Source of the DNA: Crocinitomicaceae bacterium
GTDB lineage: Bacteria > Bacteroidota > Bacteroidia > Flavobacteriales_D > Crocinitomicaceae
Direction: 5' to 3'
Length of the DNA stretch: 64,000 nucleotides
NCBI GenBank assembly: GCA_024643545.1
Contig: JAHEMR010000010.1
Span: forward strand, 1-64,000
In this document: positions 43,951 through 64,000 of the stretch, piece after piece
Layout: every line of letters begins with the position of its first letter
Position numbering within the stretch: the first letter of the stretch is position 1
Program-made: the position numbers and the translations under genes
The notes under the pieces: model-generated
Seen by the model: only the letters and a program-made list of their open reading frames with translations
The model's database searches: none
Told to the model about the DNA's origin: nothing

Positions 43951-45228
43951 TTAAAAATTCCAAACATCGTGTTCCCATGTACGGATTTCTTCTTTGATAC
44001 GTTCAGCCTCATATAAAGCATCAACACCAAATTTGTAATCTTGAATTTCACGATCGAACTTGTCGGAAACTTTATAAATTGTAGAACTAAACTTGCGTTT
44101 CCAGAACAAATCATCCATTGACATCCATTGCGCGTCATTTTGATCGTTATAAACGTAATAGTTGATAATTACATTACGAAGTTCAGGAAAGTACAACCAA
44201 AACATTTCGTTTTCTTCTACTTGTTCCGTATACTTATCTGCACCCAAATAAGGTGTGCCTTCTAAATCATATACAAGTAGTTTACCTCTTTCTTTTGGCT
44301 GACTTGGATCCTTCTGCTCCACACTACTATATCTTGCAACTGGAGCAATAGCTATAATACGGCGATCCAACAGCGAACGCTCCTTGTCAAAGAACCAATC
44401 TTCTTTAATGTTGTAAGCGATAATGTGACTTGAACCAACATAGCTAACGATATCATCATAAGAGATATTGAAACCTACGTCGCCATTATCCCAATAGCGT
44501 TGTAGAGTTTGGGGCTCGGAAACATACATATCGATGATATCCTTATTCATATCGGCCAGATTGGAATCACTTCTTAACGAGTCTATGTACTGTTGTAAAG
44601 TTTGATTCGTTTTTAAGATTGGCACTTTACCACCACCAACGGCAGTAAGTTCAATCTCAAACTCAGCTCCTTTTGCCCTTGAACTAATCGCTTTATTAAC
44701 TCGGTCACGATATGTCCCTGAAGTAAAATAATCATCTTTATCAACGCGTGCAATTGGATACCTTAAACTGTATCCATCTTCCAACGTTGTATAGTCAGGA
44801 CTTGATACTTGATAAACCGTAAGGTCACCTAACATTACATGTCTTAAAATTATTGTCCATAAGGACCATCTTTGTTGGTCTTTATTCCATCGAGGATCAT
44901 CAATATCATTTCTTGTTGCAGGATTATACAAGCTTCCACCTAGTGGGTCACCATCAAAATTATCAAAAGGAAAAAAGATTTCATGATTGATTTTCTCACG
45001 TGAATCTATGCGTGAGAATACACGTTTAGACCAAACCAAATCAGCTTCACGGACAAATTCCGGTTGGATAGCTTGTCTTACAGGAACTTCTTCCTTTAAC
45101 ACAACACCATCAATTACACCATTTGGAAGTACATTTACAGGACCTCTTAAGTCACCAGACTGCACTCCTCCTTGTCCAAATGCAGCTGTAATGCACAAAC
45201 AACCTAAACCAAAAAATACTTTTTTCAT
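43951..45228 (-). CDS. gldN: type IX secretion / gliding protein GldN
   Basis: Periplasmic T9SS component that forms the large ring with GldK at the outer membrane. Signal peptide ends ITAAFGQ (about residue 19). Family motifs include LVWSKRVFSRIDSREKINHEIFFPF and the C-terminal WMSMDDLFWKRKFSS. At 425 aa it is longer than commonly studied GldN/PorN (about 300-360), with extra sequence in the middle (about residues 200-330). It is the last gene of the gldKLMN operon, 11 nt after gldM, ending at a hairpin terminator. Confidence 0.93.
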   Translation of the reverse strand: MKKVFFGLGCLCITAAFGQGGVQSGDLRGPVNVLPNGVIDGVVLKEEVPVRQAIQPEFVREADLVWSKRVFSRIDSREKINHEIFFPFDNFDGDPLGGSLYNPATRNDIDDPRWNKDQQRWSLWTIILRHVMLGDLTVYQVSSPDYTTLEDGYSLRYPIARVDKDDYFTSGTYRDRVNKAISSRAKGAEFEIELTAVGGGKVPILKTNQTLQQYIDSLRSDSNLADMNKDIIDMYVSEPQTLQRYWDNGDVGFNISYDDIVSYVGSSHIIAYNIKEDWFFDKERSLLDRRIIAIAPVARYSSVEQKDPSQPKERGKLLVYDLEGTPYLGADKYTEQVEENEMFWLYFPELRNVIINYYVYNDQNDAQWMSMDDLFWKRKFSSTIYKVSDKFDREIQDYKFGVDALYEAERIKEEIRTWEHDVWNF

Positions 45229-45239
45229 AACTTGAAATT

Positions 45240-46997
45240 TTACTGTGTCACTTTAAGGCCAGTAGAAACAGAAGCTGAACCTCCAGTTGATTGATTATAT
45301 TTAATTTCCACAGTTACCATTCTTCCGACTCTCGCCTTAGCTAAAGCACTTGAAGGAATTCTTGATCCTGTAAAATTAATAGGCTCATTGTCACCAACTG
45401 TAATTCTACCTCCGGTTACTGTAAACGAAAGTGCCGATAAAGGTGAATCTTGTCCTAATCCAACTGTTACGTTTCCACCAGATTTTGAAATTGTCGTTTG
45501 TTCTACATTTGGTCTAGGAAGCATTCTAATTTTGTACTTAAACGTACCAAATGATTTAGATTTTCCATCCTTATCTTTTGCCGTTAACGTAATAGTAGCT
45601 AATCCTGCACCATTTGGTTTAACAATGTATCCTTTTTGAGATGTACCATTAACCGTAAAAGTAGATGGTGTGCAAGTACCTTTGTCTATTGATATACTTG
45701 AACTTACCATTCCTGCTACAACTGGAACAACTTTATTAGGATAACCCAAATATAAAACGGCCAACTCAGGTAAAGAAATTGATCCTTGGGGTTTTGCGAT
45801 TGAAACTTTCCAAGACCATGGTTTGCGGTATTCAACACCTGACTTGTTGCGAATCATCACCGTACCACTTAAATTCATTTCACCAGATCCTGAAGCACGC
45901 GTCTTAACTGTACCAATACCATCTTTTACGGTAATTGATCCTGAACCTGTAACTTCTGGATTATTATCTGAATCATAAGCAGCCATAGTCACTTTTAACT
46001 CGATGTCTTCTCCTTCTGTAGCAACACCAGGTCCACTAACTAATTGTTGAATTTTGTTAAATGAAAATTCTCCAACCGTAACTTTACTTTTCAATAAGTT
46101 TACTGCTTTCGCACGAGCACTTAAAATTTCATTCTGCATTGAAGACAATGAAGCTAATGCACCCACCATTGGTGCGTGGTCAAACGTTCGACCCATCCAA
46201 TGGATGTTTTTTTGCTCATGGTGATCAGCGAATTCAATTTTCGTTAATTCTTGATATAGTCCTAATAGAACTTCTTCATCTTCCGGATTAACCTTATTTG
46301 GTTTAGAAGTTATCATTTTTGCAATTTTCTCTTGCAACTTCAAATTTGGCATGTTGTCGTTAACATCAGTAACCTTCACTTTCCAGCTGTTTTTTTCACC
46401 TTCTAAATAAGTTCCCGTTGTTTCAACAATAAATTTACGGAATCCGTTGTAACGTTTCCATAATTTTAATCCATGTTTTGTTGGATCTAACCTTGTGATT
46501 TCCGAACCAACAATTTCGTGCATTGGAATGTCGAATTGATCTTTGGCTTGAACGGCCATCAAATTTAGACGAGTTGGTTGAAGAGGGAATTTAGGATCGT
46601 ATTTTTTCCATACAATTACCTTTTCATCCTCATCTTTTACCGTTTTCACATCCTCATTTGACTTCGTCATCATTTCGATTTTGATGTCATCGATGTATTT
46701 GATTAAAGATCCAGCTTCTTTATCAATTTTCTCAATCATACCTAGGTACTTCTTGATTTTTTTGATTTTCGCTTTCCCTGATTCATCGTTTGCCGTTGAA
46801 TTCATTTCTTCAATCAAGGCACTTTTTGCAGCATTTCCGCGCTCTAATTGAGTAATACTACCGCGCTGAATGTTCTCTTCAATTGCCACAAACGCATCCA
46901 AAATTTGTTTGGAAACATTCAATGCAAGAAGAGCAGTCAAAACGAGGTACATCATACCAATCATCTTCTGTCTTGGGGTTTCCTTACCACCTGCCAT
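45240..46997 (-). CDS. gldM: type IX secretion / gliding motor protein GldM
   Basis: Motor stator-partner that spans the periplasm; with GldL it converts proton flow into motion and secretion. 585 aa. The short cytosolic start is MAGGKETPRQKMIGMMYLVLTALLALNVS, with conserved Arg9 and one membrane helix (about 12-30). A coiled-coil-rich periplasmic domain follows and then three or four Ig-like domains (from about residue 300). Somewhat longer than the 513-residue F. johnsoniae protein. Lies 53 nt after gldL. Confidence 0.96.
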   Translation of the reverse strand: MAGGKETPRQKMIGMMYLVLTALLALNVSKQILDAFVAIEENIQRGSITQLERGNAAKSALIEEMNSTANDESGKAKIKKIKKYLGMIEKIDKEAGSLIKYIDDIKIEMMTKSNEDVKTVKDEDEKVIVWKKYDPKFPLQPTRLNLMAVQAKDQFDIPMHEIVGSEITRLDPTKHGLKLWKRYNGFRKFIVETTGTYLEGEKNSWKVKVTDVNDNMPNLKLQEKIAKMITSKPNKVNPEDEEVLLGLYQELTKIEFADHHEQKNIHWMGRTFDHAPMVGALASLSSMQNEILSARAKAVNLLKSKVTVGEFSFNKIQQLVSGPGVATEGEDIELKVTMAAYDSDNNPEVTGSGSITVKDGIGTVKTRASGSGEMNLSGTVMIRNKSGVEYRKPWSWKVSIAKPQGSISLPELAVLYLGYPNKVVPVVAGMVSSSISIDKGTCTPSTFTVNGTSQKGYIVKPNGAGLATITLTAKDKDGKSKSFGTFKYKIRMLPRPNVEQTTISKSGGNVTVGLGQDSPLSALSFTVTGGRITVGDNEPINFTGSRIPSSALAKARVGRMVTVEIKYNQSTGGSASVSTGLKVTQ

Positions 46998-47050: not shown

Positions 47051-47872
47051 TTAAGCTTTCATAGCTTTCAACATGTTACCATATACGTTGTTCAAGTCAG
47101 TTAAGTTTTGAGACAACATAGACATGTTTTCACGGTAAGATGATGTATCTTTTGCAGAAGCAGCAAGATCCGTCATAATATTTTTGATGTTTTCTTGAAG
47201 TGCGCTCATTTGACCAAGAGAATCTAAATAGTCTTGAGAAGATTTCAATTGTAATTCGTACACATTGTTCAATGCACCTAGGTTTTGACCCAATTTTTGC
47301 ATTTCAGAACCAAAATTACCTTGTCCTTCCGTAGAGATTCCAGCAATTGCTTGAGCTGACGCAGCATATTGATCAGTCAATTTCGTCAAACTAGCTGAAG
47401 CTGTTTCCAAACTTTTAACGTATGAATCAGTTGCTCCTGCAGCGGTAGCTACAGCTCCCAACGATTTCGCATTATCTGCAAGGTTTGACATTCCGTCTTT
47501 CAAACGAGCCAAAAGGTTTTGGTCGATTCCAGCTTTGTCTAGTTCTTTCGCTAACCCGTCAGCAGCACCACCGCCACCAAGTCCACCTTTTTTCAATAAA
47601 GGCATTAAGCGATTTTCCTCGTTATTTTCGTGCACAGCTAATTCAGGAAAAACACGTGTCCAGTCCGGATCTTCATGCATTGGTTCCAATGCGATGAACG
47701 CAAAGATACCTGCCTCTGTTAACAAACCTGCGATCAACATGATGTCACATCCAGGCCAGTGCATAATTTTAAATAACGCTCCAACAATTACCACTGATGC
47801 TCCAAATCCAGAAAGGTATTTAACAAACAACTTGTACTTTCTTGAAGCAAAAAAACCACCATTACCACTCAT
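47051..47872 (-). CDS. gldL: type IX secretion / gliding motor protein GldL
   Basis: Proton-conducting motor stator subunit, 273 aa. Two membrane helices lie at about residues 20-37 and 42-63; the second carries Glu53 in LLTEAGIFAF, the acidic residue expected to handle protons. The cytosolic C-terminal part is rich in Ala, Leu and Ser with coiled-coil character, typical of GldL. It lies 39 nt after gldK and 53 nt before gldM. Confidence 0.96.
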   Translation of the reverse strand: MSGNGGFFASRKYKLFVKYLSGFGASVVIVGALFKIMHWPGCDIMLIAGLLTEAGIFAFIALEPMHEDPDWTRVFPELAVHENNEENRLMPLLKKGGLGGGGAADGLAKELDKAGIDQNLLARLKDGMSNLADNAKSLGAVATAAGATDSYVKSLETASASLTKLTDQYAASAQAIAGISTEGQGNFGSEMQKLGQNLGALNNVYELQLKSSQDYLDSLGQMSALQENIKNIMTDLAASAKDTSSYRENMSMLSQNLTDLNNVYGNMLKAMKA

Positions 47873-47911: not shown

Positions 47912-49972
47912 TTACTTAATTGAAATATCGCTTTGGATTTCTTCTCCATTTTCCTGTTCGATACTTTTTCCACCACGACCCAAGTGCGTCATTGTGTTTC
48001 TGAATCCAATATACGATTTGGCTGTATCTTGGTATTCAAATGTTCGCGTACTATTCATTAAATAGAACCCAATATCCTTCCATGATCCACCGCGAAGAAC
48101 TTTGCGTTTTTTCGCTGGATGATCTCCATCTTTCGCGTCATATTCATAATCCGCAGCCATGTCTGTTTCAAACTCATACGCAGAAGGATCGAATGCTGTA
48201 GAACACCACTCTGCAACGTTTCCAGCCATACAATATAAACCAAAACCATTTGGATTATACGAATAAACTTTAACGGTGTAGAATCCACCATCTTCAAAAT
48301 AACGGCCTCTCATTGGCTTAAAGTTTGCCAAGAAACAACCACTGTTATTTCTAATGTATGGTCCACCCCAAGGGTATTCAGCCATGTCTAAATCTCCACG
48401 TGCAGCTCTTTCCCATTCACTTTCTGTTGGTAAACGGAAATCATTTACAAACAAGTCACCATTTGATTGTAACCATGAATGGAAAATTTGTGTTCTCCAA
48501 ACCGAGAATGCTCTTGCCTGCGGCCATGTAACACCCACTACTGGGTAGTTGTCATAAGCTGTGTTCCAGAAATAATTCTGAGCCATTGGTGTATGGTTTG
48601 CGTAGGTAAAGTCTCTCACCCAACAAAGCGTATCTGGATAAATATTAATTCGCTCTTTTATAATGAAGCGACTTCTATCCGTATGTCCACGAATTGCATT
48701 GTGACCACCTTTACTATTGGTAAAACCTAAATCTAGGTCCTGACCTGGATTAGCAAGGATAGATCCTTTTAATTTATTTGTATCATTTATTTTTGTAACC
48801 CCATCAGCCCACTGATCAACATACAATGTAGTATCTACCCAAACTTTATTCGTATTTTGATCTACGGTGTATAGCGTTGAACGGTGTTCATCATTGGATT
48901 TATAATCTTTTCCAAGAGGTTCTCTGCGATCTCTTTTATATAGATCATTTGCAGCTTCACCATTTAGGCTATCATAAGCGAACGATTTACGAGAATCGAT
49001 TGCTTTTGTAATAACTTTTCCACGTCGCGCAGCTTCTTTGTAGTCAATCCAAAAATAATCGAAGAAAAGTAAACGTGTATCAATTTCTTTTCTTTTATAG
49101 AAGCTCTCTTGAGCACTATAATACATGTCAGACAAAAGGAAAGCAACTTCTGGATCTTCATAATCAACTGGTTCAGACCAATTCAATGTAAAGTATTTAC
49201 GGTTATCAACTCTACCTCCTTGGAAATAAGTTGTTTTAGTTGAACCACCTTTCTCATCTTTCATATCAGCAGCACCACCTTTCGCTGGAGCTCCTTTGAA
49301 AGCATACATCGCAAAAATACCAGCTAATTCATCGTCAGAAATGGTAACTCCATCCTTAAAATTCAAAGGTCCGTTCTTTTTCGGATCAAATTTGAATCCA
49401 TTCACTAACTCTTTCGTTATTTTAACCTTTGCATTTTTATTACCATTCTTTTGATCAAACTTACCCATCATTGCTAAATACGTAAGATCGGCATTTGCAT
49501 TATTGATAGAATCCATATACAACTGAAAAGGTGTATTACCCCCTTGAATATCAGAACCCATATCAATCAAGGTTCTGTATGGCTCCTTAAAGAAATTATC
49601 CGGAACATTCACCCAACGTTCTGCATCTTCATCAGCGCTTCTTCTATACAATTTCTCACGTGCAATTGAATCACGCACCCAATGGACAAATTGACGGTAT
49701 TCGTTGTTAGAAATTTCCGTTGCGTCCATGTAGAATGCAGGAACAGAAACTGTTTTCTTGCGTGCTGTATGCATTCCCATGATATCTTCGCCGTCTTCAC
49801 CGGACTGAAAAGCACCGGAGGGAACATATACCATTCCCAAAGGCATTTTTCCAGGTCCTAAAACATCTGGATACCAGGTGTCTCTACCACTCACACCTAC
49901 TAAATTACCTTCTACATCACTACATGCGTACAAGAAACTTAATACAAATAAAAAACTAATTAATTTTTTCAT
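47912..49972 (-). CDS. gldK: type IX secretion / gliding lipoprotein GldK
   Basis: Outer-membrane-associated lipoprotein of the T9SS ring. From the ATG at 49972 it is 686 aa, with lipobox LYAC (Cys17); a TTG 30 bases upstream is not needed. It has a formylglycine-generating-enzyme-like (SUMF1) domain split in two: MVYVPSGAFQSGE to EISNNEYRQFV, then from about residue 490 VVGVTWPQARAFSVW, FRLPTESEWERAARG and VLRGGSWKD. Between them lies roughly 350 residues of charged sequence, much larger than in GldK of F. johnsoniae (about 464 aa in total). It heads gldKLMN. Confidence 0.95.
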   Translation of the reverse strand: MKKLISFLFVLSFLYACSDVEGNLVGVSGRDTWYPDVLGPGKMPLGMVYVPSGAFQSGEDGEDIMGMHTARKKTVSVPAFYMDATEISNNEYRQFVHWVRDSIAREKLYRRSADEDAERWVNVPDNFFKEPYRTLIDMGSDIQGGNTPFQLYMDSINNANADLTYLAMMGKFDQKNGNKNAKVKITKELVNGFKFDPKKNGPLNFKDGVTISDDELAGIFAMYAFKGAPAKGGAADMKDEKGGSTKTTYFQGGRVDNRKYFTLNWSEPVDYEDPEVAFLLSDMYYSAQESFYKRKEIDTRLLFFDYFWIDYKEAARRGKVITKAIDSRKSFAYDSLNGEAANDLYKRDRREPLGKDYKSNDEHRSTLYTVDQNTNKVWVDTTLYVDQWADGVTKINDTNKLKGSILANPGQDLDLGFTNSKGGHNAIRGHTDRSRFIIKERINIYPDTLCWVRDFTYANHTPMAQNYFWNTAYDNYPVVGVTWPQARAFSVWRTQIFHSWLQSNGDLFVNDFRLPTESEWERAARGDLDMAEYPWGGPYIRNNSGCFLANFKPMRGRYFEDGGFYTVKVYSYNPNGFGLYCMAGNVAEWCSTAFDPSAYEFETDMAADYEYDAKDGDHPAKKRKVLRGGSWKDIGFYLMNSTRTFEYQDTAKSYIGFRNTMTHLGRGGKSIEQENGEEIQSDISIK

Positions 49973-50082
49973 TCTTTTGTTTTTGGTTCTGCCATTATCC
50001 AAATTACCTTGCTACAGGATTCCTTTAACTTGGGGTATAACGTAAGAACTATAAAAATGGTTACATTCTATTTTTACGTCTA

Positions 50083-51039
50083 TTACAACATTCGTGGGTG
50101 TCTCGCTTTCGTCTTTGGAGGTGGCGGTATGAAATAACAATATTTCACCATCATCTCATGTGAACCACGAGAAACACTTGCTAATTTATTAATTGTAATA
50201 TCATATGAATATCCTACTTGCAATTTCGGAATAGGCGAATAACCTAACATAACAGCGATTGCATCTGATGTTCTGAAAGAAAGACCACCGTAAGCATCTT
50301 TTCCATCCATTTTAAATAGGTATCGCGCATTCAAATCTGCTGAGAACTTAATTAAATCCGTACGCACCAACATTTGTGCATCAATTGTCCCATTCGCAAC
50401 ATCCTTAAATTTGTATCCACCCATCAAGTAATAGTGACGTGCTGTTTGGTAGCTTGGTGTCAATGTCCCAACAGCCTTTGACAACTGAGATTCAGAAAGG
50501 TGAGTTGAAGAAATTCCTGCGTAATAATTTTTAGATTGGAAATACAATCCAAAATTCGCATCAACACCTGTTGCGGAAAAACTTGGAGGAAGTGTCGGGT
50601 CTTGCGCTGCTGGTAAACCATTAGGAGTAACCCAATTCGGATCAATACCATAATTCATAATTCCAACACCCACTCCAACACCTAGAACGCCTTCGCGTCC
50701 GATTTGAATGGGATAGGAATAGTTGATGAGTAAGTTATTTTGACGAGAAAAACCAATGGCATCGTGGTAGAAATTGATTCCAATCCCACCAGGTAAAAAT
50801 CGAGATAAATTAGACTCAATATTTAAGATCGCCGAGTTAGGTGCACCATTTACTTTATCCCATTGGTTTCGGTAAATAGAGGTTGCACAAATTCCATTAT
50901 ACAAGTCAAGACCTGTTTTACCCGGATTAATACTCATTTTATCATAAATAAAGTGAGTAACGAGCTTATCTTGTTGCGCTTGGATGGTTCCAATTACTGC
51001 AACTAACAAGATAGTTAATAGCTTGGTTTTCAATAGCAT
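50083..51039 (-). CDS. PorP/SprF family type IX secretion outer-membrane protein
   Basis: Outer-membrane beta-barrel of 318 aa that accompanies T9SS and is often needed to attach or export specific type B cargo. Signal peptide about 21 residues ending IQAQ. The mature start LVTHFIYDKMSINPGKTG and GYSYDITINKLA near the end are characteristic. It lies 110 nt upstream of gldK on the same strand, in the usual gene order for gliding Bacteroidota. A TATATTTG promoter precedes it. Confidence 0.92.
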   Translation of the reverse strand: MLLKTKLLTILLVAVIGTIQAQQDKLVTHFIYDKMSINPGKTGLDLYNGICATSIYRNQWDKVNGAPNSAILNIESNLSRFLPGGIGINFYHDAIGFSRQNNLLINYSYPIQIGREGVLGVGVGVGIMNYGIDPNWVTPNGLPAAQDPTLPPSFSATGVDANFGLYFQSKNYYAGISSTHLSESQLSKAVGTLTPSYQTARHYYLMGGYKFKDVANGTIDAQMLVRTDLIKFSADLNARYLFKMDGKDAYGGLSFRTSDAIAVMLGYSPIPKLQVGYSYDITINKLASVSRGSHEMMVKYCYFIPPPPKTKARHPRML

Positions 51040-51060: not shown

Positions 51061-51155
51061 AATTATCATTCTCTGTTGGGAAAATGATATTTTAAGGTGC
51101 TAAAATAAGAAATTTAAATGAAAAAATAAAATGAATTTGGAATTTTATCTTGCTC

Positions 51156-52298
51156 TTAACCGAGTTTTTGATAGGTCTTCCACCATAAATCAGGCATTTC
51201 GTTATTCATGGCATTATCATAATCCAATTTATTGCATGGAACCATGTGATGCCTTTCGTATTTAGTTCCACTCTGTGGTGGATATGGTACTTCCATCCAC
51301 CAACGGGCGGATTTATTGCTTTTAAAAAATACAATCTCTCTTCCTGATTCTTCTAGAAAAACAGTGAAACGCGTGTATTCCGATTTGCTGCCAATTGGAA
51401 AATCCCCTTTTCGAGACATGGTTCCTTGGATGAAGTACCAAATCATTTCACTTAGCAACTTATCGGACATCTGATTTACACTTTCATAGTTAAAAATACC
51501 AAAAGATGTTACTTTGTCTGAGATTCCGGCATAACGTGCTATCTGGCAGATTTGTTCTGCGTAAAATCCATTTGGAATCCCTTTACTATTGATTGTTTCG
51601 GATGCTTTAATGGCCTGAAAATCGATGTTTATAATATCGGCATTTCGAATGTGTGGTTCTGCTTTAGTGAAATCTTGATTAAACTCACCTAATCTACAGA
51701 TGTCAAAATAAAGTTTTTCGAATAAATCAAACTCTTTTGCACTTGCATAGGGAATTTGCAAGCCAATATTCGAATGATTAAAAAGATAGCACGGACGTTT
51801 CATCAGGATTTGGCTTAGGAAACCATTTGCACTGATTTCTTCTTCTGGTGAGCCGAGATCCAAGGAGTGATCAACGGAGCAAATATTTACTAATTGCTCC
51901 AAGCTTTCATAACCATTGTACATAGCAACAGTTAAATCTTGACTGCCGCCTATTATAATTGGGATGATTTTATTCTTGACTAATTCAGTCACCACTTTGG
52001 CCACTGCAAAATAGGTGTCTTCTAAGGTATTCCCTGGAAGAATATCTCCTAAATCATAAATCGGAGTTTTCCAATCTTGTTCATTGTGAAGTTTGTAAAA
52101 TGAATCGCGAAAATTGGTTGAGCGCGTCATATTTTCTACGCCACTCCCTCTGTACTCTGGCACATAAAATATTGCGCAACCGTTTTTCTCTAATTCCGGG
52201 AACCCTCCCTGATTTTTTATAACATATGCGCCAAGTTGTTGTCCTTGCCAATTTCCATTATCTGAAACAGCTTGGAAATAAATAGAGATATCTGTCAT
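51156..52298 (-). CDS. arginase-fold protein with degenerate metal site
   Basis: 380 aa, ureohydrolase (arginase/formimidoylglutamase) superfamily by overall pattern: IIPIIIGGSQDLT (117-121 aligns with GGDHS), ICSVDHSLDLG (143-147 aligns with DAHxD) and DIINIDFQA (226-228 aligns with DxD). Compared with active enzymes, His is replaced by Gln120, His by Ser145 and the second Asp by Gln228; the downstream Glu also seems missing. It probably cannot bind the di-manganese centre. It sits upstream of porP and gldK; homologues beside gldK are known in flavobacteria and are usually annotated as formimidoylglutamase. Its role is unknown. Confidence 0.82.
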   Translation of the reverse strand: MTDISIYFQAVSDNGNWQGQQLGAYVIKNQGGFPELEKNGCAIFYVPEYRGSGVENMTRSTNFRDSFYKLHNEQDWKTPIYDLGDILPGNTLEDTYFAVAKVVTELVKNKIIPIIIGGSQDLTVAMYNGYESLEQLVNICSVDHSLDLGSPEEEISANGFLSQILMKRPCYLFNHSNIGLQIPYASAKEFDLFEKLYFDICRLGEFNQDFTKAEPHIRNADIINIDFQAIKASETINSKGIPNGFYAEQICQIARYAGISDKVTSFGIFNYESVNQMSDKLLSEMIWYFIQGTMSRKGDFPIGSKSEYTRFTVFLEESGREIVFFKSNKSARWWMEVPYPPQSGTKYERHHMVPCNKLDYDNAMNNEMPDLWWKTYQKLG

Positions 52299-52388: not shown

Positions 52389-52781
52389 CTATTTATTCAA
52401 GATAGCAGCAATGTTTGGTTTAAAGTAACGGTCTGACTTTAATACTTTGCCATCCTCACGGTAAATTGGTTTACCATCCGCATCTAGCTTACTCATATTG
52501 GATCGCTGAATTTCTTCAAAAACTTCAACTATTTTATTTTGTAGGCCATGTCTTAGAATTGTTCCGCATAAGATATACAATTGATCACCGAGTGCATCTG
52601 CGATTTCAACCATATCTCCATTCTTAGCTGCTTCGAGGTATTCCTCGTTTTCTTCTTTCATCAAATCGAAACGCAGTTGGACTTCTTTCTCCGTAAGGTT
52701 TGACTTCAGCTCATAATGATTTTCTATTCCAAATGCATCATGAAATGTTTCCACTGCACCAATAATCTCATTAAAATTCAT
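52389..52781 (-). CDS. MazG-like nucleotide pyrophosphohydrolase
   Basis: 130-aa all-alpha NTP pyrophosphohydrolase relative (MazG / PRA-PH group). The metal motif is present as KEENEEYLEA followed by EIADALGDQLYI, that is, E-x-x-E and E-x-x-D pairs. Such small proteins remove pyrophosphate from nucleotides, often as housecleaning enzymes. It starts 9 nt after the E1 fusion gene and probably shares its transcript, though no metabolic link is evident. Confidence 0.85.
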   Translation of the reverse strand: MNFNEIIGAVETFHDAFGIENHYELKSNLTEKEVQLRFDLMKEENEEYLEAAKNGDMVEIADALGDQLYILCGTILRHGLQNKIVEVFEEIQRSNMSKLDADGKPIYREDGKVLKSDRYFKPNIAAILNK

Positions 52782-52790
52782 TTCTGCTAT

Positions 52791-54854
52791 TTAATAGTTT
52801 AGTAATTTCCTCATTCCATCGGATACTTTCGCTGCATTCGGCAAAAGTTCTGCTTCCAGGGCACCATTCAAAGGTATAGCTGGCGTGTCAATGGATGCAA
52901 CAATTTCGATGGGTGCGTCCAACGATTTGAAATGCGAGCGTTGCAAGCGTCCTGCCAATCCTTGCGTGAAGGTACATTCAATAGACTCCTCGGTAACGAG
53001 AAGGATTTTTCCATGTCGTTCACATAAGGCGCCCATAGCATCCAAATCCAATGGATTAATACTTCGAAGGTCCATGATTTCCACTTGTCCTTCAAAAGAA
53101 CTTGCGGCTTCAATGCTCCAATAAACTCCTCTACCATAGGTAATGACACCAATGGATTCACCTGCTAAACGTTTTTCTTCTGTAGCTGTTTGAACAATGC
53201 GTGCCTTTCCAATTGGAATCATGTAATCCTCGCTAGGTTCAATCGACATTGCTCCTTCTGTTCCAGGAATTTTCGACCAATACAATCCTTTGTGTTCTAA
53301 AATCACGACTGGATTCGGATCATAAAATGCAGCTTTAAGCAGTCCTTTTAAGTCAGCTCCCGTAGATGGATACACTACTTTAATCCCTCGAATATTTGCC
53401 AGAACGGACTCTACACTTGAAGAATGGTATGGTCCACCGGAACCATATGCTCCAATTGGCACACGTATGACAGCGCTCACAGGCCACTTACCGTTGGATA
53501 AATAGTATGATCGAGATACTTCTGTAAATAATTGGTTTAATCCAGGCCAAATGTAATCGGCGAATTGAACTTCTACGAATGGTTTTAGACCTACCGCGGA
53601 CATTCCCACCGTTGAGCCGATGATAAATGCTTCTTGAATGGGGGTATTAAAAACGCGATCATCTCCAAACGTTTGTGCTAAGGTAGCCGCTTCACGAAAA
53701 ACACCACCCAGTCGTCCACCAACATCTTGTCCATAAAGCAAGGCTTCTGGATGTTTCGACATGATTTCACGCACTGCAAAGAGTGCAGAATCTACCATAA
53801 CGGTTTTTTTCTTTCCACTTGGTTCCCGCTCACCGACTTCTTCTGTTACAGGTGTCGGAGCAAAAATGAAATCAGTTACACTATCTAAACTTGGATCCTC
53901 AGCATTTAAAGCTTGATCATAAGCTTCGTCAATTTCTTTTCGGACAGCAGACTCCAAGTTAATTACTTCGGCTAGACTGTGTCCTAAATCTTGAACAACT
54001 TGTTTCAACTTTGGATATGGATCGCTTTTCGCTGCCTCATCCAAATCATCACGGTACCATTCTTTACGTACTCCAGATGTGTGGTGTCCGAGTAACGGAA
54101 CTTTTGCGTGAATAATAAATGGACGGCGCTCTTTTCGAACGATTTCAAACACTTCTTTAACCGTTTCATAACTCGTAAAGAAGTCACTGCCATCAATCGA
54201 ACGTACTTCTATGCCGTGGAATCCTTTTGCGTATTCGGAAATATCCTGCGCACGTGTTTCTTTGGCGTTTGCTGAAATATCCCAACCATTATCTTGAACT
54301 AGGTAAACAATCGGAAATTGCTTTAATGCGGCCATTTGAAATGCTTCCGAAACTTCCCCTTCTGTACAGGAAGCGTCACCCAATGAACATACGACAACAG
54401 GGGCATCGCTGAGGTCCCATTCTGCGATTCCAGTCTTCTCTTTGTATTGAATTCCCATCGCAATTCCGGTAGTTGGTATGGCTTGCATTCCTGTTGCCGA
54501 GGATTGATGTGGAATCTTAGGAAATCCTTCTCGGTTTAAAGATGGATGAGAATAATACGTTCTTCCTCCTGAAAACGGATCATCTTTTTTAGCAAAAACC
54601 TGGAGCATTAATTCGTATGGTTTCATTCCTATACCGAGTAGAATACTATCATCGCGGTAATAGGGAGAAACCCAATCTTGAGCCTTTAATTGCATTCCGA
54701 CCGCCAATTGAATGGCTTCGTGTCCACGAGAAGTAGCATGAACATACTTAGAGGTAATCTCTTTGTTCTGCTCATATTTCTCCGCCATGGTTTTTGCTGT
54801 GCACATCAATCGAAATGCATTCCAAGAGGTAGTTTTATGGTCAAATGAACTCAT
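52791..54854 (-). CDS. 2-oxoacid dehydrogenase E1, fused alpha and beta subunits
   Basis: Thiamine-diphosphate decarboxylase of the branched-chain 2-oxoacid (or similar) dehydrogenase complex, 687 aa from the ATG at 54854. The N-terminal alpha half has SRGHEAIQLAVG and the ThDP motif from GDASCTEGEVSEAF to the Asn of QDNGWDIS. The beta half begins near residue 350 with ALLYGQDVGGRLGGVFREA and includes PIQEAFIIGSTVGMS and GAYGSGGPYHSSS. The upstream in-frame extension (to 54989) covers the terminator of the next gene and is not coding. Fused E1 is usual in Bacteroidota; E2 and E3 are not in this window. Confidence 0.93.
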   Translation of the reverse strand: MSSFDHKTTSWNAFRLMCTAKTMAEKYEQNKEITSKYVHATSRGHEAIQLAVGMQLKAQDWVSPYYRDDSILLGIGMKPYELMLQVFAKKDDPFSGGRTYYSHPSLNREGFPKIPHQSSATGMQAIPTTGIAMGIQYKEKTGIAEWDLSDAPVVVCSLGDASCTEGEVSEAFQMAALKQFPIVYLVQDNGWDISANAKETRAQDISEYAKGFHGIEVRSIDGSDFFTSYETVKEVFEIVRKERRPFIIHAKVPLLGHHTSGVRKEWYRDDLDEAAKSDPYPKLKQVVQDLGHSLAEVINLESAVRKEIDEAYDQALNAEDPSLDSVTDFIFAPTPVTEEVGEREPSGKKKTVMVDSALFAVREIMSKHPEALLYGQDVGGRLGGVFREAATLAQTFGDDRVFNTPIQEAFIIGSTVGMSAVGLKPFVEVQFADYIWPGLNQLFTEVSRSYYLSNGKWPVSAVIRVPIGAYGSGGPYHSSSVESVLANIRGIKVVYPSTGADLKGLLKAAFYDPNPVVILEHKGLYWSKIPGTEGAMSIEPSEDYMIPIGKARIVQTATEEKRLAGESIGVITYGRGVYWSIEAASSFEGQVEIMDLRSINPLDLDAMGALCERHGKILLVTEESIECTFTQGLAGRLQRSHFKSLDAPIEIVASIDTPAIPLNGALEAELLPNAAKVSDGMRKLLNY

Positions 54855-54883
54855 GGTTCTTTTAGTTTTGTAATTCAGTGAGG

Positions 54884-54891
54884 CAAATATA
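54884..54891 (-). promoter_or_regulatory. TAnnTTTG promoter for the E1 fusion gene
   Basis: Reads TATATTTG on the minus strand, 29 nt upstream of the ATG at 54854. Confidence 0.5.
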
Positions 54892-54955
54892 CAAATCAAC
54901 ACGGAAAGGCGCGAATCAGACCATAGGAATAAACCGGAAAATCCTATAAAAAGAA

Positions 54956-54981
54956 ACGGCGCAAAGAAATCTTTGCGCCGT
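54956..54981. terminator. hairpin terminator after the outer-membrane barrel gene
   Basis: ACGGCGCAAAG, loop AAAT, CTTTGCGCCGT: an 11-bp perfect stem. On the minus strand it is followed by a T-rich tract, so it ends the 55015-56073 gene. Confidence 0.9.
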
Positions 54982-55014
54982 CGCTTCATTTATGGTGGTG
55001 ATAAGAGGTCTTTT

Positions 55015-57715: not shown

Positions 57716-58990
57716 TTATTTTCCTTGGTATTTTTTCTTGTATTTCTGATACAATTTTAATTGGAAATTTTCGGAAGAAACGATTTGACCATGAAAAATT
57801 AGGGTTGAAACTTGATTTGTTTTCATATCCAACGCAGGACCTTTGGAAATAAACAAGGTAGCCGATTTACCTGATTCAATTGAACCAAATTCCTTGTCAA
57901 TACCCATTATTTTACATGCATTCAATGAAACAGATACTAATGCTTCTTCTTCTGTTAATCCGTAGGCCATTGCCGTACCTGCTTGAAATGGTAAATTTCG
58001 TGCGTTCATTGCTTCCATGTCTCCTGCATTTTGCAAACAGAAAAGGATTCCTTGTTTTTGGAGAAGTGCAGGCATTGCATATGGCAAATTCACATCATCT
58101 TCTTCTCTTTCCGGCAACATGTGAACACGATTCAACATAACCGGAATCTTTGCGTCTTTTAAGCGTTTACCCACCATATGTGCTTCGTAACCACCAATAA
58201 TTACGGGGAATTTCAAGTTGAATTTTTCTACAAACTCGATAATGTCCAAAATTTGCTGCATGCCATCTGCGTGAAAATACACGCGTTTTGTGCCAACGAA
58301 GCATGCTTTCATTGCTTCCAAGCGAAGGTCATCGATTGATTTCGCGCCTTTCGCATATACTTCAGCCAGGGTGAAGAAATCCATGATTTCCTCTTTTTCT
58401 TTTTGATAGTTTGTATTCCTAGTCTTTGGTGCTGGTTCGGCCCACCATCCACCACCTTGTGTGCTTGATGGCCAGTTCACATGAATTCCGTCATCGGCTA
58501 AAACCGTTGCGTCTTCCCAGTTCCATCCAGATAAAAACATCACAGCTGAAGAACCAGAAATCGTTCCACCGCGAGGAGTGGATTGCGTCAACATCACCCC
58601 ATTCGTTCTAACCGTTTCAATCACCCTTGATTCAACGTTGAATGCTACCTGGGTACGAACATGTGGATTTAACTCACCGACATCATTGAAATCTCGGGTT
58701 GCGCGGACAGCATCAATTTCTGTTAAACCCAAGGTAGAATTTGCCGCTACTAATCCGGGATAAACGTGTTGATTTTGCGCGTCAATTATTGTATCCCAGT
58801 CTTTGCGTTGTACGGCGTTGGTAAGGGAGTTTTTCACAAACAAAATTTTTCCCTCAGCAATACCAATTGCAGCTGTTTCAACTACTTCTCCATTACCAAT
58901 ATGTGCGGTCCCGTTAATGATTAAAATGCGTTGTGCATTTGCGACAGGAATCCATGCAAGGATGGTTAGAAATATGCGAATATTTTTCAT
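57716..58990 (-). CDS. amidohydrolase-family protein, degenerate metal motif
   Basis: 424 aa, exported (signal peptide ends VANAQ). The ATG at 58990 is preferred to a TTG at 58996. Overall plan matches imidazolonepropionase-like amidohydrolases: an N-terminal beta domain (QHVYPGLVAAN), a TIM-barrel region and a closing FGSIESGKSATLFIS. The usual H-x-H metal motif after the PGLV strand is replaced by AANST, so the metal site appears incomplete. It follows the larger homologous gene by 2 nt; the two products probably form a hetero-oligomer. Confidence 0.82.
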   Translation of the reverse strand: MKNIRIFLTILAWIPVANAQRILIINGTAHIGNGEVVETAAIGIAEGKILFVKNSLTNAVQRKDWDTIIDAQNQHVYPGLVAANSTLGLTEIDAVRATRDFNDVGELNPHVRTQVAFNVESRVIETVRTNGVMLTQSTPRGGTISGSSAVMFLSGWNWEDATVLADDGIHVNWPSSTQGGGWWAEPAPKTRNTNYQKEKEEIMDFFTLAEVYAKGAKSIDDLRLEAMKACFVGTKRVYFHADGMQQILDIIEFVEKFNLKFPVIIGGYEAHMVGKRLKDAKIPVMLNRVHMLPEREEDDVNLPYAMPALLQKQGILFCLQNAGDMEAMNARNLPFQAGTAMAYGLTEEEALVSVSLNACKIMGIDKEFGSIESGKSATLFISKGPALDMKTNQVSTLIFHGQIVSSENFQLKLYQKYKKKYQGK

Positions 58991-58992
58991 GA

Positions 58993-61900
58993 TCAATGTG
59001 TATTTTCTCCCGTTTCACCTTCCTCACCTAAGGTATCACAGTGATAGTGTTTTCTTGGTTTTTTGACAAACGGTGTGGTTTTTTCTCCGTTTTCATTTGC
59101 ATTCAACATTTTAGCAATGATTCGAGCACGTTCTGCTTCGTTGCGTTCATTTTGAGATTGATCTTTCGCCGCGTCATACAAGATAACCCCGTCAACAATC
59201 GTAAATTGCACTTTAGCTTTGATACTTAATGGATTGTCTGTCCAAAGCACTAAATCGGCGTCTTTTCCGACTCTAACGCTTCCCATTCGGTCATCTAGGT
59301 GTAAGAGTTTGGCTGGATTCAATGTTACCATCTTCAGCGCTTCTTCTTCACTCATTCCTCCGTATTTAATGCTCTTTGCTGCTTCTTGATTTAGTCGTCG
59401 GCCCATTTCTGCATCATCTGAGTTAATGCTGACAATTACTCTTTGGTCTGCCATTAATTTTGCGTTGTAAGGAATGGCATCATTTACTTCAAATTTGTAT
59501 GCCCACCAATCGGAAAAGGTAGAGCCACCAACACCATGTTTTTTCATTTTATCCGCCACTTTATATCCTTCAAGAATGTGGGTAAATGTATTGATGTGAA
59601 AGCCCATGGAATCCGCCACATGCATGAGCATATTGATTTCCGATTGTACATAAGAGTGACAGGTTACAAAGCGCTGGCTATCCATAATTTCTACAAGTAC
59701 ATCTAATTCTAAGTCGCGTCTTGGCTGAATCAATGTTTGCTTATTATTATACGCTTCCCAATCTGCTTTGTAAGCGCGTGCACGGTAAAAAGCATCATAA
59801 AAAACTTGTTCTACACCCATACGCGTTTGCGGAAAACGGGAAGTATTATAATCGCCCCAATTGGATTGCTTCACATTTTCACCCAACGCACATTTGATGA
59901 ATTTTGGCGCGTTTGGAATGAGCATTTCATCCGGATTCGATCCCCATTTCAATTTGATTAATGCTGAACATCCACCGATTGGATTAGCAGATCCATGTAG
60001 CAATTGAGCTGCTGTTACACCACCTGCTAATTGACGGTAAATATTAATGTCATCTGGATTAACCACATCTGCAATACTGACTTCAGCAGTCACCGCTTGA
60101 CCTGCTTCATTCACTCCTTTCGAAATGGCAATGTGCGAATGCTCGTCGATGATTCCTGCCGTAAGGTGCATTCCTTTTCCGTCGATAATAATTGCTGAAC
60201 TCGGAGCTGAAATGGAATTATTTTTAGCGACATTGACAATTTTACCATTTTCAATCAAAACCGAGACATTTTTCAAAACTCCATCTGCTTCATTGGTCCA
60301 AACAGTCGCATTTTTCACCAAGATAGTTTGACTTTTTGGAGAAGTTTCCATTCCGAAAGCCATATTTGGCAACCAAGGACGCGCAATAAACGAAGTATCT
60401 TTCTTGAGTTCCGTTGCTTTCACAGGATCGGGTGATTTGTCCGTTCGAATGCCAGACCAAACAATCCAATTTCCAAAAGAATTTGTTCCATCCCCTTCAA
60501 AAATGGCTGCATTTCGTGTCATTTTTCCATGAAGTTGAACGATTCCTGGATTGGATTTATCACACGAAGAAAACTGAATCGTGATATCATTTTCAACCAA
60601 CTGTACAGATGCTTTTTTGGTTGTCGTGTCCAACAGAGTTGCATTCGCTTTGCTCGCTAATTTCACCTTCCCACTTGGACGTTCATTCGAACCTTCGATT
60701 TCTAAGTCGTATTTCTCGCCGTCAACTAACAGATTATATTTTCCTACAATACTCGGTCCTGCAATGGCTTTTATTTGTGATTTTTCACCTTGAATCCAAG
60801 CATCTAACAACTGAGCTTCCGTTGTAAATGGATCAGATGAATACACTGAGAAATTGGCAAATTTCCCTGCTTCCAAGGTACCCAATTCACTTCCTACTCC
60901 TAATTCTTTCGCTGGATTTATTGTCAACGCGGCCAAAGCTGCATCCACTGGTAAGCCCCTAGCGATTGCAAGTCTCACATTTTTCCAAAATTGCTCTGCA
61001 GATTTAAGTCCATTCGTTGTGATGCAAAAAGGCACACCATTTTGAAATAAGTAAAGTGGATTCGAAGGTGCCAATTCCCAATGTTTCAAATCACTTAAAG
61101 GAATTTGACGTGCAATGTACGGATCTCTCAATTCAAAAGGTTCAGGGAAATTTATCGGAATTACTATTGTTCGATGAATGTTTTTAATCGCGTCAATCGC
61201 AGCATATTCGTTTCCTGAACCGATATAGCACACGTTTAACTTGTGTTCTTTCATGATTTTTTCTGCACGCAAAATCTCCCATTTATCTTCCGTTTTGAAG
61301 AACATAGGTAATTTCATTTGATTGGACCAAGCATCCAAGGAAATCGAAAATTCGTTTTGCGGTGAAGACGTGTAGTAGGATAAATCAAATAATGCTTGAC
61401 GCATCAAGGCAATCGAACCCATTTGAGCAGAGGGATATCCTTCAGGTGACGAGCCCTTTGAAAAGGATAAGAATTGTGCAGCATCACCTTTGATCATTTG
61501 TTTGTTGACCTGGTCATTTCCTAACGAGACAAGCGCTCCTGTACCTCGCACCATTCCATCCATTAAGTGGCTAACTGCATAACCAAATCCTTGCTGCATC
61601 AACGTTTCATTTGTTTTTGCGTCAATCGCATACGAATTTGCAGCTTTAAATTCCGGATGAATTGCTTCATTCCAATAAAAGGCCCCATCCTTTTCTACTT
61701 TTGATTGAGTACGAAACCCACCTTCATGAAAGGTAGTTTTTGGTTGTCCAATATTGGAATACAATTCAATAAAAGAAGGCACTACCGTCTTGCCTGAATA
61801 GTCAATTATTACAGATTGATTTGCTTTAATTGACGGAGCGATTTCTTTTATTTTACCATCCACCAATAACATATCTGCTTTCTCCCAAATGACTGATGGG

Positions 61901-62037
61901 GATACATAAATTCGTGCGTTCTGAATGAGAATTGACTTTGGTTCGGATTTTTTAACGCCATTTTCTGGCCCAAATTGTGCAAATACGGGAAGAAATTGAA
62001 ACGTTAAAAAGATTGAGAAGAATATGCTTTTTTTCAT
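58993..62037 (-). CDS. double amidohydrolase-domain secreted protein
   Basis: 1014 aa, exported (signal peptide about 20 residues, ending PVFA). It contains two amidohydrolase units in tandem. In the first (about residues 35-420) the metal motif is lost: VVPSFIELYSN where H-x-H is expected. In the second (about 570-985) HLTAGIIDEHSHIA keeps H-x-H near residue 630, with further metal-ligand candidates in TCHSYVQSE and FTHILEG and the Asp in VSINSDDAEMG. So the C-terminal unit is likely the active one. Such proteins hydrolyse cyclic amides or peptides; the substrate is unknown. Followed 2 nt later by a related gene. Confidence 0.87.
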   Translation of the reverse strand: MKKSIFFSIFLTFQFLPVFAQFGPENGVKKSEPKSILIQNARIYVSPSVIWEKADMLLVDGKIKEIAPSIKANQSVIIDYSGKTVVPSFIELYSNIGQPKTTFHEGGFRTQSKVEKDGAFYWNEAIHPEFKAANSYAIDAKTNETLMQQGFGYAVSHLMDGMVRGTGALVSLGNDQVNKQMIKGDAAQFLSFSKGSSPEGYPSAQMGSIALMRQALFDLSYYTSSPQNEFSISLDAWSNQMKLPMFFKTEDKWEILRAEKIMKEHKLNVCYIGSGNEYAAIDAIKNIHRTIVIPINFPEPFELRDPYIARQIPLSDLKHWELAPSNPLYLFQNGVPFCITTNGLKSAEQFWKNVRLAIARGLPVDAALAALTINPAKELGVGSELGTLEAGKFANFSVYSSDPFTTEAQLLDAWIQGEKSQIKAIAGPSIVGKYNLLVDGEKYDLEIEGSNERPSGKVKLASKANATLLDTTTKKASVQLVENDITIQFSSCDKSNPGIVQLHGKMTRNAAIFEGDGTNSFGNWIVWSGIRTDKSPDPVKATELKKDTSFIARPWLPNMAFGMETSPKSQTILVKNATVWTNEADGVLKNVSVLIENGKIVNVAKNNSISAPSSAIIIDGKGMHLTAGIIDEHSHIAISKGVNEAGQAVTAEVSIADVVNPDDINIYRQLAGGVTAAQLLHGSANPIGGCSALIKLKWGSNPDEMLIPNAPKFIKCALGENVKQSNWGDYNTSRFPQTRMGVEQVFYDAFYRARAYKADWEAYNNKQTLIQPRRDLELDVLVEIMDSQRFVTCHSYVQSEINMLMHVADSMGFHINTFTHILEGYKVADKMKKHGVGGSTFSDWWAYKFEVNDAIPYNAKLMADQRVIVSINSDDAEMGRRLNQEAAKSIKYGGMSEEEALKMVTLNPAKLLHLDDRMGSVRVGKDADLVLWTDNPLSIKAKVQFTIVDGVILYDAAKDQSQNERNEAERARIIAKMLNANENGEKTTPFVKKPRKHYHCDTLGEEGETGENTH

Positions 62038-63155: not shown

Positions 63156-64000
63156 TTAAAGTTTCGTCAGTTTTCGGACGATTGTTCCTTTATTGGTAAG
63201 TAAGTGGCAGAAATAAACACCAGGTTTCAAGTCTTGAATATCGATGTAAGCACTTTGAACACCATTAAAAGAGGCATTTAACGCTAGTTCACCCATCTGA
63301 TTATAAAAAGCTACATTTTCTACGGCAAATTGCGTTTCGAAAAAGCACAAATCTTCCGCCGGATTTGGGTAAATGGAAGCACTCAATGATAATTCGTTCA
63401 TTCCTGCATCCAATCCTAGGTATTGATCTTGGAATTCGATGGAACTGATGTTTTGGTTGCCATTAACATTTGTCGCCACGACTTTCAATAGGTATTCTTT
63501 TTTTCCATTTGTCCACCATTCGTATTCCGTTCGGTCAATTGGTGGCGTTCCTATCCAACTTCCACTTCCGAAGAATGTTTGATAAATAGAGTCGATTTCA
63601 TTGATGTCATGTCTCACACGTAATGCCTGAAAAGTACCTAGTGGTGTGGTTATCGTTCCCCATCCATCAACTTCCGTGTGGCGTTGACGGTGTTGAATGT
63701 ATTTGATATCTGTAGCCGGATTCAAATCAACAAATGTATAACCACGTGAGTCATGGATATCCCCAAAAGTAAGTGGTAAACTGTAGCGCGTTTCAATTGT
63801 ATCTGATTTAAACGGAACTCCTTGTCCTTGCACGTTGATCGAATATCCAATAGAAGTAATTGCACTCGTTGAACGCTTGGTGTATTGACTTAAATCGCTG
63901 ATTTGAATGGGTAGAAAAGCGGATAACTGGTCAATTGGTAATTCGGTTGTTAAATTAAAATAAGTCGCAGCATAAGATCCCGCGAATGGTCCATACGTAG
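63156..64000 (-). CDS. partial secreted protein with T9SS type A sorting domain
   Basis: The frame is open to the right edge of the window, so the 5' end lies outside; about 280 residues are visible. A GTG at 63833 is not a real start, because upstream codons in the same frame (AATYFNLTTELPID and onwards) continue the protein. The C-terminal 75 residues form a type A sorting domain starting SASIYPNPAEDLCFFET and ending TKGTIVRKLTKL-like, giving export by T9SS. No catalytic domain is recognised in the visible part. The stop codon directly abuts the rnpB promoter. Confidence 0.88.
   Translation of the reverse strand, partial: TYGPFAGSYAATYFNLTTELPIDQLSAFLPIQISDLSQYTKRSTSAITSIGYSINVQGQGVPFKSDTIETRYSLPLTFGDIHDSRGYTFVDLNPATDIKYIQHRQRHTEVDGWGTITTPLGTFQALRVRHDINEIDSIYQTFFGSGSWIGTPPIDRTEYEWWTNGKKEYLLKVVATNVNGNQNISSIEFQDQYLGLDAGMNELSLSASIYPNPAEDLCFFETQFAVENVAFYNQMGELALNASFNGVQSAYIDIQDLKPGVYFCHLLTNKGTIVRKLTKL

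Follow-up and report, generated by a model that had tools for sequence, protein, structure and literature searches.

A predicted arginase-fold pseudoenzyme family of Bacteroidia without a complete binuclear metal site, with a member encoded beside porP-gldKLMN in a Crocinitomicaceae bacterium

Results

The locus

The stretch of DNA analysed here (the window; 64,000 nucleotides of contig JAHEMR010000010.1 of a Crocinitomicaceae bacterium, assembly GCA_024643545.1) carries a gene for an arginase-fold protein within a row of genes transcribed in the order PRA-PH/MazG-like gene, pseudoenzyme gene, porP, gldK, gldL, gldM and gldN (Table 1). The initial annotation had described a full-length gene with normal fold motifs directly upstream of porP-gldKLMN. 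The profile-identified neighbours agree with this placement, the open reading frame is intact and free of frame damage, and its product has a predicted arginase fold; the gene lies on the minus strand. Elsewhere on the minus strand of the window, the E1 component of a 2-oxo acid dehydrogenase has its alpha and beta parts joined in a single gene for a 732-aa protein (52791-54989), two adjacent genes (57716-62037) are amidohydrolase-like judged from their translations, and the C-terminal part of the product of 63156-63833 resembles, by eye, a sorting domain of the type IX secretion system (T9SS).

Table 1. Features of the locus, with positions in the window
Feature	Positions	Strand	Basis or remark
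Arginase-fold pseudoenzyme	51156..52298	-	380 aa; single copy found in genome assembly
PRA-PH/MazG-like pyrophosphohydrolase, upstream gene	52389..52781	-	occupies the place of topA in many relatives
PorP/SprF family protein	50083..51039	-	profile search
gldK	47912..50002	-	profile search
gldL	47051..47872	-	profile search
gldM	45240..46997	-	profile search
gldN	43951..45228	-	profile search
AT-rich block in the gap between pseudoenzyme gene and porP	51089..51120	-	near-identical across the six relatives that were compared; occurs once in the window; putative promoter of porP-gldKLMN
Arginase-fold core, about residues 39-298	51405..52184	-	AlphaFold2 model and structure matches
Gln120, first metal-His position (GGSQD)	51939..51941	-	profile alignment
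D143-H-S145-L-D147 (canonical DxHxD), Ser145 at His position	51858..51872	-	profile alignment
D226-F-Q228 (canonical DxD), Gln228 at second Asp	51615..51623	-	profile alignment
Asn270 at Glu of Glu-Val-Asn-Pro motif	51489..51491	-	profile alignment
C-terminal extension, residues 299-380, motif FYKSxxSxRWW...C...DYxxA	51159..51404	-	beyond arginase fold; alignment and model

Fold and metal-ligand positions

The protein only just reaches the Pfam Arginase family (22.9 bits against a cut-off of 22), and it falls far short of the NCBIfam equivalog cut-off for HutG (34 against 229.15 bits). The structure prediction suggested in the initial annotation, run with AlphaFold2 and 43 homologues as input, gave a model of mean pLDDT 93.5 with an arginase fold within residues 13-298, the best structural match of which is Trypanosoma cruzi formiminoglutamase 4mxr (Z 33.7, rmsd 2.2 over 273 residues, model residues 18-297). 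Pfam, fold match and profile alignment together place the protein in the arginase/ureohydrolase superfamily by fold and descent.

Residues were mapped by profile alignment to the Bacillus subtilis and T. cruzi formimidoylglutamases and by an alignment with 13 ordinary ureohydrolases. The three ligand replacements proposed at the outset, His to Gln120, His to Ser145 and Asp to Gln228, are all found in the alignment, and the distal Glu, which had seemed absent, is indeed replaced in the window protein. The losses at Ser145 and Gln228 stand as argued, but Gln120 counts for less than had been supposed. The first-His position is already Asn in the profile-aligned B. subtilis HutG and T. cruzi formiminoglutamase (the title of PDB entry 4myn reads 'N114H variant'), so that Gln120 alone is weak evidence of inactivity. 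It is on the second His and the second Asp, together with the Glu, that the case for the predicted inactivity rests.

The 380-aa protein contains no signal peptide-like or membrane stretch (highest 19-residue hydrophobicity mean 1.35; at most -0.35 within the first 40 residues), and hence is probably cytoplasmic. GldK and GldN are periplasmic, and GldL has a cytoplasmic part. Direct contact with GldK or GldN is therefore unlikely for a protein with no such stretch, and a contact with the T9SS would more plausibly be made through the cytoplasmic part of GldL.

Ligand loss across the family

For a view of the family as a whole, 43 diverse sequences, the window protein and 42 others with 17-65% identity to it, were picked by hand from the fetched loci and aligned (alignment A2). 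Whether the ligand losses are conserved was a check the initial annotation had called for, and the outcome is clear: the six-ligand binuclear metal site (H, DxHxD, DxD) is complete in none of the 43, with three ligands kept in 29, four, the maximum, in 6, two in 1, one in 6 and none in 1. The positions differ in how they have fared. The second His (145) is kept in 2 and the last Asp (228) in 5 of the 43 sequences, and these second-metal positions rank 333rd and 287th in conservation among the 380. At the first-His position 28 sequences have Q, 5 have H, 5 have N and 5 another residue, and the Glu position (270) is N in 15, E in 17, G in 10 and S in 1. Asp is retained at position 143 in 36, at 147 in 34 and at 226 in 37 sequences, the last ranking 42nd of 380.

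One may read this pattern as that of an active enzyme of changed chemistry, in which the Asp triad together with residue 120 would bind the first-site metal and catalyse a reaction new for ureohydrolases. Such an enzyme would fit the retention of the three Asp residues, the Asn at the first-His position of solved formimidoylglutamases, one of which is titled with Mn bound, and the strong conservation of core residues R64, D82, D94, E214 and R218 in A2. However, the second-His and second-Asp positions vary freely, the Glu position takes any of four residues, and members from families f16 and f18 are left with 0-2 of the six ligands, yet keep the rest of the protein, with W333 (43/43) and C355 (42/43) persisting family-wide. 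We consider a changed chemistry clearly unlikely.

An ordinary formimidoylglutamase or agmatinase whose ligands had been misread would be another way to account for the gene. Formimidoylglutamase is its closest fold and profile match, and the genome encodes hutU. Against such an enzyme stand the incomplete ligand set of all 43 sequences, the HutG score, the presence in the same genome of three other Arginase-family proteins at other sites, and genome G305, which has the gene and no hutU match. Ordinary HutG is rejected on the ligands, the score and these other proteins, and we find misread ligands hardly credible. Scored with regular expressions, one of the three other Arginase-family proteins (L136) has all four canonical motif patterns, and the remaining two (L135 and L137) have three of the four.

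The control set of 13 ordinary ureohydrolases of the phylum (nine from outside the class, two paralogues inside the class and two loci from a wider-profile search) retains all six ligands in 10 and the Glu in all 13; a single ligand differs in each of L121, L127 and L128. The nine same-phylum matches outside the class keep six ligands in seven cases and five in the other two, and have no extension. A tree computed without the columns of the ligands and of the extension splits 44 rows of the family from 12 of the controls with SH-aLRT 100 (L120, a long branch, left out), and the same split returns at 100 without the five long f18 rows; with all columns and L120 included the family clade has SH-aLRT 97. 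The tree split and the control ureohydrolases thus define one clade marked by ligand loss and the extension.

In comparisons with eight relatives, the closest pair (L031) has dN 0.042 and dS 0.88, a dN/dS of about 0.05, and the other seven have dN of 0.049-0.141 with dS above 2 or saturated. A decaying pseudogene is ruled out by the intact frame, by the ratio in the closest pair and by the low dN in the others. The gene encodes an arginase-fold protein conserved under purifying selection within one clade, all sampled members of which lack a complete binuclear site, and it is in this sense that we call it an arginase-family pseudoenzyme.

The C-terminal extension

The seven most conserved positions of A2 are, in order, W287, W333, Q181, C355, Y360, W334 and F324, five of which (W333, C355, Y360, W334 and F324) lie in the C-terminal extension. 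On average the extension is as conserved as the core (0.457 vs 0.462), so it is by these peaks that it stands out. The extension aligns in none of the 13 control ureohydrolases, apart from a few stray residues in L120. Modelled alone it forms about four strands and two helices (pLDDT 76.6), and Foldseek returned no match at E<=0.001. The best VIA match has Z 4.2, and a sequence search of the PDB gave a best E of 0.07 and one of Pfam a best E of 0.0033, the latter in 3 of the 43 members. A WGR domain was considered and dropped after a comparison by eye; the PARP WGR domains score about 2.5-2.7 with VIA, which is no more than chance would give. A search of the window's genome for further copies of the extension found none.

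Distribution

Within the window's order, 274 of 299 genomes have a homologue (198 of the 203 that are >=90% complete and <=5% contaminated). A re-search with the wider profile of 20 of the 25 order genomes with no match gave five matches at 21.8-73.3 bits. G112 and G254, both of the order and 98-99% complete, do not match P0001 and score just 21.8 bits when searched with the wider profile, but have GldK at 7.7e-155 or better. In a phylum sample of 392 genomes 151 match, the strong matches being confined to the class. Outside the order, the class has 94 matching genomes among 102, which leaves 8 without a match. Beyond the class the matches that occur are weak (best 2.4e-21), and the nine of them that were fetched are ordinary ureohydrolases by their ligands and missing extension. 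None of the 61 genomes of family f22 has the gene. Judged from these searches, the gene is kept by most sampled families of the class Bacteroidia. Its presence throughout most of the order and the dN and dS of the closest pair go beyond what chance would give.

Gene neighbourhood

Of 74 order genomes in which both positions were among the best 150 of each search (not a random subset, and with some genomes fragmented), gldK lies within 6 kb of the pseudoenzyme gene in 60, farther away on the same contig in 2 and on another contig in 12. In family f17, gldL lies within 8 kb in 23 of 23; in six other families it does so in 0 of 46 (f14 0/10, f15 0/14, f16 0/7, f18 0/4, f19 0/8, f20 0/3), with G458 and G561 left out of these counts. 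The claim that other flavobacteria have a similar neighbour at gldK thus holds for the order and, by gldL, for f17, but not class-wide.

A different neighbour emerges from 42 loci chosen by hand for diversity. The topoisomerase gene topA, identified by profile in L097 and L044 and by BLAST cluster elsewhere, is directly upstream in 20 of them and within three genes in 2 more, though not in the window's own genus. At the other end gldK is downstream in 18, and 16 loci have both; L044, L101, L103 and L107 have topA without gld genes beside the pseudoenzyme gene, and L113 and L114 have gld genes without topA. The gap from topA to the gene has a median of 13.5 nt and is at most 15 nt in 13 of the 20 loci, and that from the gene to the first ATG of porP or gldK has a median of 133 nt (range 70-278, 18 loci). 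In the window's genus the gap before porP measures 110-116 nt and holds the strongly conserved AT-rich block. By these gap sizes and the conserved block, a single operon with porP-gldKLMN appears disfavoured. Two adjacent GldN-like genes were observed in the gld loci of L098, L111 and L112.

Bacteroidota promoters follow a two-part pattern with a -7-like element. Compared with it, the gap in the window has a -7-like match and no two-part match. Among 13 relatives, searched over the gap and up to 90 bases of the next gene, the -7-like element occurs in 4 and the two-part pattern in 3, at least one of these hits (L102) lying inside the next gene, so the comparison is uninformative. A sigma-70 scan found 6 sites against a shuffle mean of 9.5, fewer than in shuffled sequence.

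Synonymous divergence offers another comparison. Across pairs dS is 0.78-1.56 for porP and 0.49-1.26 for gldL/gldK, whereas it exceeds 2 or is saturated for the pseudoenzyme gene in 7 of 8 pairs and for the MazG-like gene in 7 of 7. This might reflect an expression difference from the gld genes, and is suggestive only. In the closest pair (L031) the values are alike (pseudoenzyme gene 0.88, porP 0.78, gldK 0.86), and the absence of the difference there slightly weakens the reading that we favour below.

Neighbours vary in other families. A PBP4 gene occurs in three f15 loci, an epimerase-like gene near the family member in two f14 and two f15 loci, and a glycosyltransferase beside it in three f16 loci, these being BLAST clusters of each of which one member was identified. 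In f18 three of the five loci (L087, L089 and L090) have the gene within a porU-gldJ-murF cluster, with porP too in L087 and L089. Profile scores for L087 are 1076.8 bits for PorU, 213.7 for PorP and 354.9 for MurF, and 410.9 for GldJ, below its cut-off of 458.2; in L089 and L090 the neighbours were assigned by BLAST cluster. A divergent OmpA-domain gene adjoins the degenerate family member in these three f18 loci and also in L086.

Co-occurrence with the T9SS

The search for GldL covered 80 of the 102 genomes that belong to the class but not to the order (22 of genus g70 were left out). GldL was found in 71 of 72 carriers of the pseudoenzyme gene, the exception being G642, and in 5 of 8 genomes that lack the gene. 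Family f22 has GldL in 41 of its 61 genomes. With the wider profile, run on 29 genomes, the family was found only in three known carriers and in none of the 20 GldL-positive genomes of f21-f23 (20 of the remaining 26); a weak match in G725 is a ureohydrolase. G642 (L117, L131) is 99% complete, and is perhaps a natural case of T9SS loss.

Let us consider what these distributions mean for the role in T9SS or gliding that the initial annotation had proposed. The protein might be an accessory of that machine, acting from the cytoplasm to regulate the GldL/GldM motor or help in its assembly, or coupling the motor to the metabolic state of the cell. The adjacency in the order and f17, the presence of GldL in nearly all carriers and the confinement of strong matches to the class all speak for it, and since the porU-gldJ-murF setting of f18 is a T9SS neighbourhood separate from that of gldKLMN, it keeps this reading alive. 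However, there is no gldL linkage in six other families, the T9SS is present without the gene in most non-carriers, in f22 and in 20 genomes of f21-f23, G642 has the gene and no GldL match, and the gene is packed against topA and not against gld genes. A position beside a secretion-motor operon is not proof of a role in secretion. Involvement in the T9SS is possible on this comparative evidence, and the accessory role as an account of the family appears to us somewhat doubtful.

The open-access literature, supplements being outside the scope of the search, yielded no paper that ties formimidoylglutamase or arginase and type IX secretion to gldK. In the portions of the articles covered, PMC4755523 concerns arginase on mobile transposons, unrelated to the T9SS, PMC9169529 mentions arginase as a biochemical test, and PMC12635249, PMC11278836, PMC10936215 and PMC9950754 do not tie the gene to the T9SS.

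Discussion

At slightly better than even odds (a probability of about 0.53), we favour the view that the gene encodes a cytoplasmic pseudoenzyme that arose from a formimidoylglutamase-like ureohydrolase and is passed on vertically throughout the class, that acts without hydrolysis and whose partner is more likely general than the T9SS ring. The protein would function as an adaptor or regulator, its C-terminal extension perhaps docking on the partner, and the old active-site cleft might serve as a structural core or as a residual single-metal or ligand site. A general cytoplasmic partner would be more likely than the envelope ring of the T9SS, since the recurrent, tightly packed operon neighbour is topA. 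That the gene lies close to porP-gldKLMN in the window's order and in f17 would then mostly be a matter of inherited gene order. The gene shares a neighbourhood with that operon in these two groups; it differs from a constituent of it in the wider gap with an AT-rich block, in being unlinked in six families, and in that the T9SS exists without it.

Besides the like synonymous divergence in the closest pair, three observations count against the favoured reading. The frequent retention of the three Asp residues, together with the Glu kept in 17 of the 43 sequences, could mean a working mononuclear site with altered chemistry. The T9SS neighbours occur in two separate settings, gldKLMN and, in f18, porU-gldJ. 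Lastly, topA is directly upstream in just 20 of the 42 hand-picked loci, and in the window's genus it does not stand there.

Comparison with known systems helps to place the family. HutG (3m1r, 4mxr) shares with it the fold and, at the first ligand position, a residue other than His (Asn in both HutG-type structures), whereas the window family has lost the second His along with the second Asp, and in many members the Glu as well, carries the C-terminal extension and scores far below the HutG cut-off. A precedent for ligand loss, as described in the part of the article drawn on here, is MetCb, the metal-free subunit of metformin hydrolase that works as a binding partner (PMC11271267; structure 8x3g); the same part mentions that there are arginase-family proteins which have no binuclear metal centre and whose functions are elusive. 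MetCb resembles our protein as an Arginase-family protein with lost metal ligands, but its gene, by that account, adjoins the gene of the active partner, none of which was seen beside members of the window family, and the window family has the added domain. The proteins of elusive function are presumably represented by the Trypanosoma brucei arginase-like protein (4rhk, 4rhm), which likewise belongs to the Arginase family and has no binuclear metal centre, in a different lineage. We know of no such C-terminal extension in that protein.

By analogy with MetCb, the window protein could be the inactive subunit in a heteromeric ureohydrolase, where it would stabilise an active partner whose gene lies elsewhere. 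The precedent of the MetCa/MetCb pair, as far as the consulted part of its description goes (PMC11271267), and the other Arginase-family proteins in the same genome would fit such a subunit. However, none of 115 fetched loci with a match holds a second family-profile ORF at E<=1e-10, a threshold that many ordinary ureohydrolases would miss, and the control ureohydrolases do not have the extension. We regard a partner subunit as very improbable.

A more specific, tentative proposal, on which we place no great weight and which we think rather unlikely, is that of a cytoplasmic sensor and adaptor. The remnant site formed by Asp143, Asp147, Asp226 and Gln120 would hold one metal or a metabolite of guanidino-like kind, and the C-terminal domain, a new one, would signal this state either to the cytoplasmic part of GldL, so setting the T9SS/gliding motor, or to TopA.

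Returning to the pseudoenzyme reading that we favour, its most immediate consequence would be for annotation. The gene is easily annotated as a formimidoylglutamase, and the pseudoenzyme reading, that of an ancient protein with a conserved domain of its own, would correct such annotations. A genome paper, in the part of it considered here, reports a lone 'formiminoglutamase' with the remaining histidine-degradation pathway undetected (PMC11278836), and that gene may well be a member of the present family. Near-universal in the order, the gene offers one handle on what a dead ureohydrolase does. Should the pseudoenzyme indeed act on the T9SS or on gliding, that machine would have in it an input from the cytoplasm.
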